Of a stretch of DNA of 41,127 nt, positions 21,710 through 29,905 are shown one piece after another. Numbering within the stretch: the first letter of the stretch is position 1; every line of letters starts with the position of its first letter. Origin of the DNA: Thomasclavelia saccharogumia DSM 17460 (GTDB lineage: Bacteria; Bacillota_I; Bacilli_A; Erysipelotrichales; Coprobacillaceae). The notes beneath the pieces are model-generated. The model was given only the letters and a program-made list of their open reading frames with translations. It was not told the DNA's origin and ran no database searches. Where the stretch lies: contig NZ_JMLH01000024.1 of NCBI RefSeq assembly GCF_000686665.1, forward strand, positions 1 through 41,127, written 5' to 3'. A program made the translations under genes and the position numbers.

Positions 21710-22231
21710 CTACATTTCTTTACTAATAATTTCTAAACCAACCTTTACGATAGTAATCTGATCAAATAACTTTAATTCAATATAAGCAACACGTTTATGC
21801 CGGTTTATTTTGATGATTTTACCATGATAATCAACTAAAGGTCCACTAATAATATTAACCTCATCCCCAACAATATAACCCTTTGACATTTCAATAATAT
21901 GCTCGCTCTTACCAAATCTAAGCAACGCTTTTGCTTCTTCTTCAAGAATCGGTAAAATATTACTGCCATCATTTCCTAATACCTTCGTTAAATCAGGAAT
22001 AAGCTTTAATTGGTTAAATAATATATCAATATGATCAGTTATCATAAAGACATAACCTTTAAATAAAATCTCCTCTACTTCACTCCACTTACCACGATAT
22101 TTTTTCATCCGCTTACATTTAGGAATAAAGCATTCTTCATATATTTTTGGTGAAATCAATCGTTGACAAATTTCTTTGATTTTCTCCTCTTTTCCACTTT
22201 TAACCTGAATAACATACCAGTTATCATACAT
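21710..22231 (-). CDS. loaP: NusG-like antiterminator LoaP
   Basis: The 173-residue NusG paralogue has an NGN domain (WYVIQVKSGKEEKIKEICQR, EEILFKGYVFM) and a C-terminal KOW domain (GYIVGDEVNIISGPLVDYHG). The short length and MYDNWYVIQVKSG start fit LoaP rather than housekeeping NusG. LoaP binds a leader RNA hairpin and lets RNA polymerase read through terminators in long polysaccharide or secondary-metabolite operons. Here it lies after the CapD-type gene and is followed at once by a bidirectional terminator, so its target operon is not downstream. SD GGAGGT is well placed. Confidence 0.85.
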   Translation of the reverse strand: MYDNWYVIQVKSGKEEKIKEICQRLISPKIYEECFIPKCKRMKKYRGKWSEVEEILFKGYVFMITDHIDILFNQLKLIPDLTKVLGNDGSNILPILEEEAKALLRFGKSEHIIEMSKGYIVGDEVNIISGPLVDYHGKIIKINRHKRVAYIELKLFDQITIVKVGLEIISKEM

Positions 22232-24533: not shown

Positions 24534-25220
24534 ATGGATAAAACTGAATTAAATGATGAGGTACAAATAGACTTATCAGAATTATTTAAATTAATAAAAA
24601 AACATCTTAAACTAATTATTATTTTTATGTTGGTAGGAGTTATCGTAGCTGGTTCTTATACAACTTTTATGGTTGATAAAAAATATTCTTCTCAAGGAAC
24701 GATTCTTTTAAAAGCACAAGTAGTAGATGGAACGGTTGACTCTACACAGTTAAATTCTAATAATTCCATGATTGCTAATTATATTAAATTATTACAGGGA
24801 AACAATATCCAGGATAAAATTGCAAAAAACTTAGATATTTCGACTAGCTTAGTTCGCGGTGCTTTACAAATTTCTAATACTGAAGACACTCAGATCATTG
24901 AAATTGGGGCAATCACTACTGATCCTGGTCTATCCAAACGAATTGTTGATGAAACGATCAGTGTATTTACAGAAACAGTAAAAGAAATGTTAGATATTTC
25001 CAATATTATCATTGTTGATAATGCTGAAATCAATACCAGTCCCGTTTCTCCAAGTATTAAAAAGAATATGATGTTAGGAGCAGTTGCTGGAGTTGTAATA
25101 TCTTTAGGATATATTTTATTAGCATATTTATTAGATAGTAAAATTAAAAACGGTGAAGTTGCCGAACAAGTTTTAGATTTACCAGTATTAGGTGTCATTC
25201 CATATTTTGAGGATCAATAA
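24534..25220 (+). CDS. Wzz/CpsC-type capsule chain-length regulator and kinase modulator
   Basis: The 228-residue protein has two transmembrane helices (about 28-47 and 177-198) flanking an extracellular region, as in Wzz/YveK/CpsC proteins. The KKYSSQGTILLKAQ segment and the Pro-rich motif before TM2 (INTSPVSPSIKKNMMLGAVA) are family features. In Gram-positives it activates the partner BY-kinase encoded two genes downstream and influences polymer length. SD AGGAGG. Its stop overlaps the next start (TAATG). Confidence 0.9.
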   Translation: MDKTELNDEVQIDLSELFKLIKKHLKLIIIFMLVGVIVAGSYTTFMVDKKYSSQGTILLKAQVVDGTVDSTQLNSNNSMIANYIKLLQGNNIQDKIAKNLDISTSLVRGALQISNTEDTQIIEIGAITTDPGLSKRIVDETISVFTETVKEMLDISNIIIVDNAEINTSPVSPSIKKNMMLGAVAGVVISLGYILLAYLLDSKIKNGEVAEQVLDLPVLGVIPYFEDQ

Positions 25221-25981
25221 TGGAATTTATTGATATACATAGTCATTATGCCTGGGATATTGATGATGGTATTAGTAGTCTTGAGGAGGCTAGATCTGCC
25301 TTAACAAAAGCACAAGCTCAAGGTATCAAACAAATAGTAGCCACACCACATATTATTCCTGAAACAACCACTGATCTTTGTTTAATTAAACAAAGGATCA
25401 AAGAATTTATTGAATTAGCTAAAAATTATGGAATTCAAGGATATTTTGGCAGTGAAGTAATGCTTAATAGTGATTATCTAATGGGTTTGAAAAACAATTT
25501 ATTAATACCTTTGAATAATGGTCCTTATTTATTAGTAGAATTCAATCTTTCTCAAGGTATTAATGACGAAAGTGATGATCGACTTTATGAATATTCTTTA
25601 AGATATAAATTAGTAATTGCTCATGTTGAAAGATACTTTTACAACGAATTAGATTCACAAATGATTCAGTCATGGATCGATAATGGCTATATCATTCAAG
25701 TAAATAGTTCAAGTTTTTTGGGTGAACATGGTAAACATATAAAAAATAATGCTTATAAACTATTAGAGAAAGGTCTTATTCATGTTATTGCCAATGATAC
25801 CCATCGAAGTAACGATCATAGATGTCCAAATTTGAAAGATACTTATGAATTATTAATAAAAAAATATTCACAGGATCAAATAAAACAGTTAATGTATGAT
25901 AATCCCCTTGCAATCATTAACGGGAAAGCTGTTCTACCTGTGAAAGTTACAAAAATACCCTGGTTTAAAAGGAGAAAATAA
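25220..25981 (+). CDS. CpsB/YwqE-type tyrosine-protein phosphatase (PHP domain)
   Basis: This metal-dependent PHP-fold phosphatase of 253 residues has FIDIHSHYAWDIDDG (metal-binding His and Asp), ATPHIIPE, GSEVMLN, AHVERY and ANDTHRSNDHRCPNL. Enzymes of this family dephosphorylate the Tyr tail of the cognate BY-kinase and so control capsule assembly. The gene overlaps the Wzz-type gene at TAATG, and its stop adjoins the next ATG, so the three are one translational series. Confidence 0.93.
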   Translation: MEFIDIHSHYAWDIDDGISSLEEARSALTKAQAQGIKQIVATPHIIPETTTDLCLIKQRIKEFIELAKNYGIQGYFGSEVMLNSDYLMGLKNNLLIPLNNGPYLLVEFNLSQGINDESDDRLYEYSLRYKLVIAHVERYFYNELDSQMIQSWIDNGYIIQVNSSSFLGEHGKHIKNNAYKLLEKGLIHVIANDTHRSNDHRCPNLKDTYELLIKKYSQDQIKQLMYDNPLAIINGKAVLPVKVTKIPWFKRRK

Positions 25982-26713
25982 ATGTTAAAGAAAAAAACAA
26001 AACACGAAAACAAATCAACGTTATTAATAACAAATCCTAAACAAAAAAATAATAAAATAGATTATAAAGAGATTTACCGTCATATTCGTACAAACATTGA
26101 ATATTCAACTGTTGGACAGGATATCAAAGCAATTAACCTTACATCTGCTGTACCAACTGAATCTAAAAGTACCACAGCATTAAATTTAGCGATGATCTAT
26201 GCTACAAAGTATCCTAATATCTTACTGATTGATGCTGATTTAAGAAAACCTGTACAGCATAAATATTTAAATATCTCAAATAGTAGTGGTCTTACTAATG
26301 CATTGATCGATTATGGAAAAACAAAAGAAATCAATCAATCATGTTTTCAAAAAATACAAGATAAATCATTTGTTGGCGATTTGACTGTTTTAACTTCTGG
26401 GGTGAAAGTTCCTAATCCTTCAGAGTTATTAAGTAATCCGGTTTTTGAAGAATTCATTAAAGCTTTAAAGCAAAGTTATGATTTCATTATTGTTGATTGT
26501 CCACCAGTAATGCTAGTAAGTGATGCTATTCCTGTTGGCAACGTAGTAGATGGAACGGTCTTTGTATGTTCATCTAAGACCACAAATCGTAAAGATGCTA
26601 AAGCAGCAGTTGAAGTTTTACAAAAAAATAATGTAAATATTTTAGGGACAGTTTTAACTCAAATTGAAAACGATGGTACAAATTCTGGATATTACTATTA
26701 TTACTATTATTAA
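25982..26713 (+). CDS. CpsD/YwqD-type bacterial tyrosine kinase with poly-Tyr tail
   Basis: The cytoplasmic BY-kinase has 243 residues. Walker A is SAVPTESKSTTALN (K62; a Ser stands where Gly usually precedes the Lys), Walker A' is LLIDADLRKP, and Walker B is FIIVDCPPV. The C-terminus ends in Gly followed by seven Tyr, the cluster that these kinases autophosphorylate. Together with the Wzz-type activator and PHP phosphatase encoded before it, this is the standard phospho-switch for capsule or exopolysaccharide export. No glycosyltransferase, Wzx or Wzy genes lie in the window. Confidence 0.93.
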   Translation: MLKKKTKHENKSTLLITNPKQKNNKIDYKEIYRHIRTNIEYSTVGQDIKAINLTSAVPTESKSTTALNLAMIYATKYPNILLIDADLRKPVQHKYLNISNSSGLTNALIDYGKTKEINQSCFQKIQDKSFVGDLTVLTSGVKVPNPSELLSNPVFEEFIKALKQSYDFIIVDCPPVMLVSDAIPVGNVVDGTVFVCSSKTTNRKDAKAAVEVLQKNNVNILGTVLTQIENDGTNSGYYYYYYY

Positions 26714-27741
26714 TGATTGAGCAAAAGAAAAGTAATCTTATTTTTGCCATCGTTGTCATTGTTCTATGTGCCTTAACTGCTTTAATATTTATTTATGATC
26801 GTAATAAAACACAAAACTTTGCCAATCAATTTACTGATAATAGTACTAGTGAAACAGCTAATATTGAAGAAAATGAAAATAATCAAACAACAAATAATAA
26901 TTCAAATAAAGCTGATTCAACTGATATTCCAACTTTGTATTGTGTCGGTGATAGTACTACTTTAGGAATCGAAGATCAAAACAACGCTTATCCAGCTTAT
27001 ATAGACAATCTTGCCAATTTTAATATCAAATTAATCGGTGATAAAAATATAACAAGTGCTGGTCTGCTAGTAAAATTAGGAGTTACTCCTGTCTACGTTG
27101 ATAAATTAACGATACCAGCCTCAACTACTCCTACCCCAATCGTCTTTTTGAATCAAGGTGGTAAAGCTAATAATGATCTTTTAAAAAGCCAAGGTTCAAT
27201 CGATAGTGTTACAATAAACGGTATTACAGGTAAAATTACTTATCGTTATGAAGGTAACACATTATTATTTACTCGAGATCAGCCTGGTGAACAATCAATC
27301 GTTAACTCACCAACATTGATTCAAGTTAATAATAATATCGAACCTGATGGTATATTAGTTCTTTATAGTGGTGCTTATGAAAAAAGTGTTAACGGAAGTT
27401 TAGTTGAATATCAAAAACAAATCATCAGTGCTTTTAATACTGATAAATATATCGTTGTGTCATTGACCCAAGATGATCGTAATGAAACCAATGAGTCTTT
27501 AGAGACTGCCTTTGGTGAGCATTATCTAGATTTTAAAAGTTATTTGTTAGATGATGGTTTAGCAGATGCTGGAATAACTGCTACTGAACAAGATTTACAA
27601 AATATCTCTAACAACAAAATTCCTGCCAGTCTTCGGGCTAATGATATAAATGGTAATGATAAATATAGTGAATTATTATCGCAACAAATTCTAAATAAAT
27701 TACTTGATTTAGAATATATTAATAAAAATATTTTAAAGTAA
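26713..27741 (+). CDS. Membrane-anchored SGNH/GDSL-like protein
   Basis: One N-terminal transmembrane helix (about 8-27) is followed by an Asn/Thr-rich linker and an extracellular domain starting TLYCVGDSTTLG (GDS block I, Ser81). FLNQGGKANNDLL may represent later SGNH blocks. The C-terminal D-x-x-H block expected of an active esterase is not seen; the matching region reads ANDINGNDKYSELL. It may be an acetyl-esterase or transferase acting on the polysaccharide, or an inactive relative. It overlaps the kinase stop (TAATG) and has no separate SD, so it is translationally coupled. Length is 342 residues. Confidence 0.7.
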   Translation: MIEQKKSNLIFAIVVIVLCALTALIFIYDRNKTQNFANQFTDNSTSETANIEENENNQTTNNNSNKADSTDIPTLYCVGDSTTLGIEDQNNAYPAYIDNLANFNIKLIGDKNITSAGLLVKLGVTPVYVDKLTIPASTTPTPIVFLNQGGKANNDLLKSQGSIDSVTINGITGKITYRYEGNTLLFTRDQPGEQSIVNSPTLIQVNNNIEPDGILVLYSGAYEKSVNGSLVEYQKQIISAFNTDKYIVVSLTQDDRNETNESLETAFGEHYLDFKSYLLDDGLADAGITATEQDLQNISNNKIPASLRANDINGNDKYSELLSQQILNKLLDLEYINKNILK

Positions 27742-27754
27742 TTTGTGAAATTAC

Positions 27755-27783
27755 TTGTCATTTAATAAAAAAAGGGATATTAT
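27755..27783 (+). promoter_or_regulatory. Promoter of the sortase cassette
   Basis: TTGTCA, a 17-bp spacer and TATTAT. A 9-bp hairpin AAGTAATTT/AAATTACTT (27736-27756) overlaps the -35 and the end of the SGNH-like gene. Confidence 0.65.
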
Positions 27784-27828
27784 AAGTATGTATGTACATG
27801 TAAACTCAAAAAGGAGGAAGAAGGAAAT

Positions 27829-28386
27829 ATGAAGAAAATCATCAGTTCACTACTTGTGGCTTGTCTTCTTGCTATTTCAACTATATCACCTACACATGCA
27901 GTAGGATATTTAAATGATAACGAAAAAGAACTTTTAACTGCATTAAATTCTACAGTAAAAGTAGATGGCGTTACACTTAAGTTACAAGCTGCTGATATTA
28001 ATACAGCAGAAAATTATATGATGCAAGATGGATTCGATTTAACTACTGAGCAAAAAAATATTATTATTAACAATATTGAAGCTACTAAAGCTTATATGCA
28101 AGCTAATCATATTACTAATTTTGATGCGATTACAAGAAAACAAGCATATGATATTTTAGAATTTCTTCAAGCAGCGGGAGGTGCAATCGGTTTAACAGTT
28201 ACATTAAATGCTGCTGATAGAACAATTTTATTTTATGATGGTGATAAACTAATTTATACTACAACTCAGGTTATTAAAAAAACTGGTTATGATATAACTC
28301 AAACTGTAGTTATTGCATCAGGTCTAGTTGTTATCTTATTAGGTGCAGGATATTATGCTAAGAAAAAACATTTGTTTTCTAAATAA
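27829..28386 (+). CDS. Secreted protein with non-canonical sorting signal (sortase partner)
   Basis: The 185-residue precursor has a clear signal peptide (cleavage likely after THA, residue 24), a helical ectodomain of about 125 residues, and a C-terminus built like a sorting signal. The latter shows IKKTG at 149-153, a hydrophobic stretch of about 17 residues (VVIASGLVVILLGAGYY), then KKKHLFSK. The usual Leu-Pro of LPxTG is replaced by Ile-Lys. The sortase gene starts within its stop codon (TAATG), so it is very probably the dedicated substrate. It resembles in layout the processed acidic surface proteins linked to class D sortases, but I cannot assign a function. Strong SD AAAGGAGG. Confidence 0.8.
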   Translation: MKKIISSLLVACLLAISTISPTHAVGYLNDNEKELLTALNSTVKVDGVTLKLQAADINTAENYMMQDGFDLTTEQKNIIINNIEATKAYMQANHITNFDAITRKQAYDILEFLQAAGGAIGLTVTLNAADRTILFYDGDKLIYTTTQVIKKTGYDITQTVVIASGLVVILLGAGYYAKKKHLFSK

Positions 28387-29054
28387 TGAAATTAAATCAT
28401 AAACAGCGCAAGGTGATGGCACTAATTTTAGTGCCATTATCTTTTACGCTTCTTTGTTATTTAACATTATATCTATTAATAAGTCCTGTAATTGAGCCAT
28501 TAATGTCTATCTATAGCTTAATTTCCAATGATTATGCACCTACTTTAAATGATGAAAATTCTAAAGATTTATATGCAAATAAATTAGTAGCTTCGGATAC
28601 GATCAATGCATCACAAATAGTTCAGCCAACCTATGGTGATTTATTTGGAAAATTAACCATTGATTCTGTAGATATCAACGTAAATCTATATTACGGAGAT
28701 GGTAGAGACCAGCTTCGTAATGGTGTAGGGCTATTTGGGGGATCTTTTTTACCTGGTTTTAATCGAACAATCTTGATCGCAGGCCATTCAATACCATATT
28801 TTGAACCTTTAGGTGATATTAAAGTTGGCGATATAATTAAAATATCTACACATTATGGAGATTTTGAGTATAAAATTACTAATACTAAAATTTCTGATGC
28901 CAATGATAGCAGTAATTATGATCTCGAACAAGATGAACAAGAACAATTAATTTTATATACATGTTATCCATTTGAAATAATCGGCTATAAATCACAGCGA
29001 TTATTTGTATATGCTGATAAAATAAGTGGACCTACTATAGTGGAGGGACAGTAA
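28386..29054 (+). CDS. Sortase (class D-like)
   Basis: The 222-residue transpeptidase is anchored by an N-terminal transmembrane helix (about 12-35). The catalytic triad is visible: H134 in LIAGHSIPYFEPLGDIKVGD, C193 in LILYTCYPF and R205 in SQRLFVYA. The TCYP context and the short tail fit class D. Sortases cleave a C-terminal motif of a secreted protein and join it to the wall or another protein. Its coupling to the preceding gene suggests it acts on that IKKTG-containing protein. No SD of its own is evident. Confidence 0.92.
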   Translation: MKLNHKQRKVMALILVPLSFTLLCYLTLYLLISPVIEPLMSIYSLISNDYAPTLNDENSKDLYANKLVASDTINASQIVQPTYGDLFGKLTIDSVDINVNLYYGDGRDQLRNGVGLFGGSFLPGFNRTILIAGHSIPYFEPLGDIKVGDIIKISTHYGDFEYKITNTKISDANDSSNYDLEQDEQEQLILYTCYPFEIIGYKSQRLFVYADKISGPTIVEGQ

Positions 29055-29055
29055 G

Positions 29056-29877
29056 ATGAGTAGAAAAAGCAGTCGCAATTATTTATCATATTTAGTAGCT
29101 TTATTATTGACTATATTTATTAGTATCTTCATTGTTTTAACAGTTACTAATGTAACGATCATGAATTCTAGTTATTTAACTTCTAAAATGGAAAGTGCTG
29201 ATTTTTATCGACAATCTGTTATTAATTTAAATAAACAAATTCAGCAGGAGACACAGTCTACGGGATTTCCTCTAGAAATGTTTGAAAATTACGTTGATGA
29301 AGAAACAGCAGATGAAATAATGAAAAACTATATTGAAAATGCTTTTTCAACCGGTAATACTGATATCGATACTACGACATTTGAAACAAAATTAACTGAG
29401 GATATTGATGAATATCTCCAATCAGCTAATATTATCATTAATAGTGAAGAAGAAACAGCTATTGCAACATTAAAAAATAATTTGATTAATTATTATCAAA
29501 CTTATTTAACGATTCCTTATTTAGATTTAATAATTAATCTTATTAATACGTACAATACATATTATTATTTCATTGCAATTATTTTAATTTTATTGATCTT
29601 AATAGCTAGTTTTATTTTATATCATTTACATAGTCATTTTCGTACTAGAAGAAGATATTTTGCTTATGCCCTATCAAGTACAGGGTTAATATGTCTGATT
29701 CTTCCAGCTTTTATCTATTTTGGTAATTTTGTTGGTAAAATAAGCTTATCACCGAAATATTTCTATGATTTTGTTACATCTGCAATTAACAATTATTTAT
29801 TAATATATATTATTATTGGTATTGTTATGATCATTATTGGTAATATAACTGCATATTTAAGATTTAAAAGATATTAA
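29056..29877 (+). CDS. Four-TM membrane protein of the sortase cassette, function unknown
   Basis: I do not recognise this 273-residue protein. Hydrophobicity suggests TM1 at about 12-34, an acidic extracellular domain of about 130 residues (helical, Glu/Asp/Thr-rich), then TM2-TM4 (about 170-192, 206-228 and 246-268) and a basic tail. It follows the sortase by 1 nt with its own SD (GGAGGG). A terminator closes the operon, so its work is likely tied to the sortase and the secreted partner, for example as accessory or receptor (inference). Confidence 0.8.
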   Translation: MSRKSSRNYLSYLVALLLTIFISIFIVLTVTNVTIMNSSYLTSKMESADFYRQSVINLNKQIQQETQSTGFPLEMFENYVDEETADEIMKNYIENAFSTGNTDIDTTTFETKLTEDIDEYLQSANIIINSEEETAIATLKNNLINYYQTYLTIPYLDLIINLINTYNTYYYFIAIILILLILIASFILYHLHSHFRTRRRYFAYALSSTGLICLILPAFIYFGNFVGKISLSPKYFYDFVTSAINNYLLIYIIIGIVMIIIGNITAYLRFKRY

Positions 29878-29905
29878 TCTAGGAAAATTCCTAGATTATT
29901 TTTTA
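29876..29905 (+). terminator. Intrinsic terminator of the sortase cassette
   Basis: AATCTAGGAA/TTCCTAGATT, a 10-bp palindrome with a minimal loop, followed by A then T6. Confidence 0.85.

Follow-up and report, generated by a model that had tools for sequence, protein, structure and literature searches.

Class D sortases are represented by the LPNTA sortase of B. anthracis and by SrtD of C. perfringens (LPQTGS; PDB 4d70) (PMC4498605). The three-gene set that we describe here, termed the trio, encodes a secreted substrate, a sortase and a membrane protein with four transmembrane (TM) helices, termed TM4. The trio resembles the class D systems in that its sortase shares the TCYP active site and has class D as its nearest NCBIfam class, and in that the gene for C. 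perfringens SrtD likewise stands in one operon with that for a hypothetical anchor protein. However, the T. saccharogumia trio sortase stays under the class D cut-offs, its signal has Lys where class D has Pro, and neither a constant four-TM partner nor linkage to capsule genes is described for class D in the literature that we searched.

A second point of comparison is SrtB4 of M. gnavus, whose deletion removes the capsule from the cell surface and whose complementation restores it (PMC13121745, Nat Commun 2026). The srtB4 gene belongs to a capsule cluster that encodes a tyrosine phosphatase among other capsule functions, and the trio sortase gene often sits near capsule genes as well. In contrast to the trio, SrtB4 is assigned by its authors to class B and no four-TM partner is mentioned, and the main text leaves its substrate unidentified (PMC13121745). 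Homology between the two sortases has not been shown. The srtB4 gene is the only experimental precedent in the literature searched for sortase genes in capsule clusters.

Two further systems offer partial parallels. In the PEP-CTERM/exosortase (EpsH) system, protein sorting is tied to exopolysaccharide genes (PMC1569441), and the trio's coupling of protein sorting to polysaccharide genes is conceptually similar. However, that system occurs in outer-membrane bacteria, its enzyme is the membrane protein EpsH and not a sortase, and each genome has many Pro-Glu-Pro substrates, whereas the trio has one [ILV]KxTG substrate. The Pro-Glu-Pro motif is absent from the aligned trio signals, and the trio enzyme is a sortase, not of the EpsH type. 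The lipoprotein intramolecular transacylase Lit has four TM helices and a helical outer cap with two catalytic histidines (PMC8275575). The model of TM4 likewise has four TM helices and a helical outer domain, but no conserved counterpart of these two histidines.

The trio in Thomasclavelia saccharogumia

The window (the whole stretch of DNA analysed, 41,127 nucleotides from T. saccharogumia DSM 17460) contains the trio as three plus-strand genes within 27829-29877, with neighbours touching or overlapping. The first gene (27829-28386) encodes a secreted sortase substrate of 185 amino acids, with a signal peptide, an alpha/beta body, a sorting signal, a TM helix and a basic tail; the sorting motif IKKTG, a member of the [ILV]KxTG family recognized in aligned substrate C-termini, is encoded at 28273-28287. 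The second (28386-29054) encodes a sortase of 222 amino acids with catalytic His134, Cys193 and Arg205, whose match to PF04203 (66.4 bits against a cut-off of 26.6, E 2.7e-18) places it in the sortase superfamily. The third (29056-29877) encodes TM4, of 273 amino acids, with an acidic outer domain (residues 36-155) and a possible Lit-like fold that lacks Lit's catalytic histidines.

A strong intrinsic terminator on the same strand (29875-29904) consists of a 10-bp stem and a T-run (z -4.5). The intergenic gap preceding the trio holds a sigma-70-type promoter-like site, TTGTCA-N17-TATTAT (27755-27783, plus strand), with 10 of 12 matches, the joint best score. As 21 such sites occur in this AT-rich stretch and 20.3 are expected by chance, a promoter at this position is plausible but not shown. 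The earlier note had proposed a self-contained cassette of promoter, sortase trio and terminator; the genes and the terminator held, while the promoter remains only plausible.

Upstream of the trio, on the same strand (24534-26713), are genes for a Wzz/CpsC-like chain-length determinant (24534-25220; PF02706, E 2.7e-12, and TIGR01006), a CpsB-type tyrosine phosphatase (25220-25981; PF19567, E 7.9e-50) and a CpsD-type tyrosine autokinase (25982-26713; TIGR01007 above cut-off). Between the CpsD gene and the trio, a plus-strand gene (26713-27741) encodes a secreted protein with a GDST motif (GDSTTLG). This protein appears SGNH-hydrolase-like by eye, has no Pfam match above cut-off, and was seen at this position in no other genus. 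Also near the capsule genes is a minus-strand gene (21710-22231) for a LoaP-type transcription antiterminator (NCBIfam NF033641 above cut-off), which likely controls the polysaccharide operon.

Distribution

The trio is present in six of the nine genomes of the genus, in the same gene order and with the same capsule genes adjoining, and this order of the three genes is also found in four other lineages. A scan of 84,980 species, with one genome per species, for the sortase signature E[QR]L[IM]L[YF]TCY yielded 46 loci, mostly in Clostridia. The TM4 profile matches 45 of these loci and the substrate profile 44, with the gaps falling at contig ends (one TM4 match, at L054 near a contig end, is spurious). 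In Lachnospiraceae, a TM4 match at E 1e-3 is present in 56 of 397 genomes, and is strong in about 35 of them; in a class sampled around a member of Oscillospiraceae type, 15 of 391 genomes have one at 1e-8. Trios also occur in other settings, such as beside PTS and parAB genes in Longibaculum muris (G028/L025), and further related trios were found in G456 (L041), G449 and G471 (L042, L043) and G379 (L045). The trio is a sporadic, widespread system, conserved far beyond the genus and in capsule-linked and unrelated contexts alike.

Several individual loci have additional or missing components. In Clostridiales bacterium VE202-01 (L046 4220-4848; the same record as L022, G038) the substrate gene appears to be frameshifted, through a sequencing error or as a pseudogene, and the sortase and TM4 genes are intact. 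Two orphan sortases (L177 6617-7384 and L180 6632-7399) are very near the trio type and have no adjacent substrate or TM4 gene. In Anaerocolumna sedimenticola (L063; G579:C1:807171 and 813916), two sortases that lie among three CpsB genes, a few kb from each other, are each paired with a substrate of the [ILV]KxTG type. At L134, L135 and L136, a second, different sortase gene is found a few kb from the trio.

The substrate and its sorting signal

The substrate consists, in order, of a signal peptide, a folded body, the C-terminus VIKKTGYDITQT, a TM helix and the tail KKKHLFSK. It thus has the motif, hydrophobic helix and basic tail that LPXTG-type signals require, and it passes the NCBIfam LPXTG-anchor model TIGR01167 (18.6 bits, cut-off 15.9). 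Unlike LPXTG signals, it has no Leu-Pro at positions 1 and 2, but reads IKKTG instead. In the structure model, a confident alpha/beta body (residues ~28-145) is followed by the motif in a low-confidence stretch (149-153) and then by a helix (156-179), so that the predicted layout is the one expected for a sortase substrate. An alignment of relatives shows that the substrate is a conserved family. Its body belongs to no Pfam family, with only scattered weak matches in Pfam and NCBIfam scans, and fold searches with its model gave no match (best Foldseek E 1.2; best VIA Z 4.0). As VIA is not an independent search, this lack of a match does not show that the fold is new.

The consensus [ILV]-K-x-T-G was derived from 44 distinct C-terminal signals adjoining trio sortases. 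The Thr and Gly are present in all 44, position 3 can be any residue, and position 2 is Lys in 39 and never Pro (one exception to the Lys, at L069, reads VRKTG). An Asp or Asn stands two residues beyond the signal in 35 of the 44. Five substrates with unusual bodies (L134, L136, L142, L158 and L161) nevertheless carry the same signal. In the window's own genome this signal is confined to one protein: the next-best match (E 0.05) is without the motif. We found no report of IKNTG, IKTTG, IKKTG, LKVTG, VKNTG or IKQTG as a sorting signal in the open-access literature searched (subscription papers were mostly outside this search), and no description of the [ILV]KxTG signal or the trio in the literature searched. 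Within the scope of this search, [ILV]KxTG, in which Lys replaces Pro, is a new sorting-signal consensus.

Five sortase-bearing loci (L083, L085, L084, L090 and L091) lack TG at the expected place. The first two encode fusions of substrate and sortase in which IKNTD replaces IKNTG, and which are perhaps no longer cut. The last two are divergent trios whose substrates end in AKTDV-TM and not in KxTG; these ends could reflect another specificity.

The sortase

Among relatives, the catalytic His and Cys are each conserved in 44 of 44 sortases and the Arg in 43 of 44. Class D is the best-scoring NCBIfam class for all 44 trio sortases. The nearest models for the window's sortase are those of class D, NF033746 and NF058671, and it misses the cut-offs of both (107.4 against 165 and 113.7 against 140). 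The cognate signals of class D have Pro at position 2 (LPxTA, LPQTG), in contrast to the trio signals. Elsewhere, the window's genome encodes one class-B-like sortase and two class-C-type sortases, the latter clustered with proteins that have NLPMTG and NLPNTG as terminal signals.

Fused genes and loci without a sortase

Substrate and sortase form one polypeptide at six loci (L073, L074, L079, L082, L083 and L085). A further 14 loci, all in Lachnospiraceae, have no sortase, and here the substrate domain is fused to TM4 in 11 cases and separate in three. These substrate-TM4 fusions stand directly before CpsB-Wzz-CpsD. The signal precedes the TM helix in 24 of 24 Lachnospiraceae loci with a sortase, versus none of the 14 without one (Fisher p ~1e-10). 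One sortase-less locus, L162, has IGQTG about 25 residues further upstream than the signal position, and counting it changes the p value to 3e-9. This table counts related loci, and the association rests on about three independent changes: the TM4 tree shows three changes of the sortase label, including one loss (L141 beside L086) that is nested with strong support (99*).

Since the signal tracks the presence of the sortase, unlike bodies carry the same signal, and fusions occur, we infer that the motif is the sortase's recognition signal, although cleavage itself is inferred. The fusions to the sortase and to TM4 further tie the substrate body to both partners. The sortase-less loci, for their part, evidently function without anchoring.

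The membrane partner TM4

The AlphaFold model of TM4 is confident (pLDDT 89, pTM 0.80) and contains a helix (residues 3-33), the outer helical domain, and helices 156-191, 195-222 and 234-267. The outer domain (36-155) has 21 Asp or Glu versus six Lys or Arg, with a pI of 4.1, and 37 of 39 relatives share its negative charge. A conserved basic loop, HRxxRY, between TM2 and TM3 (positions 196-204) is cytoplasmic in the predicted topology. TM4 belongs to no Pfam family, scans of Pfam and NCBIfam gave only scattered weak matches, and the TM4 profile found no credible match in the PDB.

With TM4 as query, the only long match among solved structures to cover most of both chains is Lit (PF07314, PDB 7b0p; Z 10.1 over 176 of 215 residues at 3.3 A), although helical proteins can reach such a Z by chance. 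Foldseek gives this pair a probability of 0.72 at E 1.0. The corresponding profile comparison is not significant (probability 1.9%), and the Pfam Lit model matches only one of 39 relatives (E 0.017) and not the window's TM4. The conserved cap histidine pair is absent from the TM4 alignment, in which the only His-rich columns are 192 and 196, in the cytoplasmic loop, and 235 (seven of 39 rows). Because Lit's catalytic histidines are missing and there is no profile similarity, we ruled out that TM4 is a Lit-type acyltransferase; a true Lit is encoded elsewhere in the window's genome. TM4 could instead be a binding or presenting partner with a Lit-like fold, for which there are no binding data. 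A distant TM4 relative (L044 6118-6963, in G027) is encoded next to ilv/leu and pgk genes, at a locus that has neither a sortase nor a substrate.

Association with capsule genes

We built HMMs for Wzz, CpsB and CpsD from the loci, and considered a locus linked if at least one match lay nearby. By this measure, 24 of the 46 loci from the 84,980-species scan and 27 of the 38 Lachnospiraceae loci are linked; a few genomes are common to the two sets. Among distinct loci with enough flank, 47 of 65 are linked to capsule kinase, phosphatase or chain-length genes once L051 is discounted, where a relaxed CpsD threshold had matched ParA. About a quarter lie away from capsule genes, and the tree implies about nine changes in linkage.

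In Lachnospiraceae, the capsule triad lies near 13 of 24 trio sortases versus none of 40 other sortases from the same genomes (p 2e-7), for which ~7 kb were taken on each side unless the contig ended sooner. All 14 sortase-less loci are linked to the triad. Between one and three CpsB genes were counted in each genome that was checked (two in the window's own), so linkage by chance would be rare. We observed five arrangements: the trio followed by CpsB-Wzz-CpsD; divergent CpsB-CpsD-Wzz; Wzz-CpsB-CpsD followed by the trio (in this genus); CpsB-Wzz-CpsD followed by the trio; and the trio followed by CpsD-CpsB. Given the absence of linkage in the control sortases and its presence at all sortase-less loci, a role in capsule biology, though inferred, is the best reading.

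Proposed function and alternative explanations

Most of what the earlier note had read from the window alone was borne out by these comparisons. Its IKKTG signal, with Ile-Lys in place of Leu-Pro and Thr-Gly kept, held: alignment of substrate C-termini defines [ILV]KxTG, a real motif that is present with the sortase and absent without it. Its four-TM protein of unknown family with a large acidic outer domain also held, as a widespread and constant component, and the link to capsule genes is far stronger than could be seen from one sequence. Its 'class D-like' sortase held in part, in that class D is only the nearest class. Its suggestion of a specialised surface-processing system is supported computationally, with cleavage between Thr and Gly remaining an inference.

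We lean towards the view that the trio is a dedicated sortase system of capsule or exopolysaccharide loci, acting in assembly or retention. The conservation of the trio, the motif, the motif's dependence on the sortase, the fusions to either partner and the linkage to capsule genes are all established by computation. Cleavage, the acceptor, binding by TM4 and the capsule role are inferred, and the lack of biochemical or genetic data behind the family counts against this reading. So do the quarter or so of loci that are not linked, the five sortase-bearing loci without TG in place, and the sortase-less loci, which evidently manage without anchoring. In the proposed mechanism, the substrate would be exported and then retained in the membrane by its C-terminal helix, and the sortase would cleave it between the Thr and Gly of [ILV]KxTG. 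By analogy with sortase-class chemistry, a thioester at Cys193 would pass the substrate on to an amino nucleophile, for which a cell-wall peptide is the presumed candidate. TM4 would bind or present the substrate body at the outer face of the membrane, and the displayed body may aid the CpsB/CpsD/Wzz machine in assembling polysaccharide or retaining it at the surface.

The alternative that survives best, and which remains possible, is that the trio is a surface-protein sortase system unrelated to polysaccharide, adjoining capsule genes through regulation or hitch-hiking in islands of envelope genes. In its favour, trios are unlinked in Longibaculum muris (L051), L041/L048, L065, L067, Lachnospira (L071, L072) and others, and in T. 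saccharogumia the trio's own promoter-like site and terminator set it apart from the upstream capsule genes. However, the other sortases of the same genomes are never linked (0 of 40), the linkage comes in several gene orders and orientations with repeated changes on the tree, and every sortase-less locus is linked.

Less probable is that the substrate body, together with TM4, serves as a sensor or checkpoint for capsule synthesis, in which the HRxxRY loop would signal to CpsB/CpsD and the sortase would release or immobilise the sensor domain. The position of the substrate-TM4 fusions directly before CpsB-Wzz-CpsD and the predicted cytoplasmic location of the conserved basic loop would fit this idea, but no signalling domain was recognised and there is no evidence of contact with CpsB or CpsD. 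This sensor reading is compatible with, and not opposed to, the capsule-system explanation. Finally, that the secreted protein is a plain membrane protein which the sortase does not cut could be argued from the missing Leu-Pro and from Lys at position 2, unreported as a sortase specificity in the literature searched, but is very unlikely given the invariant TG across very divergent substrates (including the unrelated bodies of L134, L136, L158 and L161), the loss of the signal where the sortase is lost, the flexible motif that the model places after the body and before the helix, and the substrate-sortase fusions.

Within the favoured reading of a capsule-dedicated sortase system, a bolder version, which we consider doubtful, is that the sortase links the substrate not to ordinary wall peptide but to the capsule machinery or to the anchor of the polymer itself. 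If so, the [ILV]KxTG protein would be a covalent capsule clamp, a Gram-positive counterpart of the exosortase/exopolysaccharide system.

Implications

Anchoring by sortases is itself known; what is new here is a dedicated substrate, its signal, a constant membrane partner and a strong association with capsule genes, with the enzymatic step and the capsule role being inferred. The natural fusions of substrate to enzyme and of substrate to partner show which of these components cooperate. If cleavage occurs as inferred, Lys in place of an otherwise near-universal Pro would add a sortase specificity that may be useful for protein ligation. Since the three genes recur together in many Clostridia and related bacteria, in most cases next to capsule genes, they probably form a hitherto unnamed system for building or holding the capsule. 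How sortases bear on the capsule is an open question, with the target of the M. gnavus enzyme unidentified in the main text of that study (PMC13121745). The trio provides a candidate substrate family, enzyme, membrane partner and motif in many gut species, and thereby makes this question directly testable.
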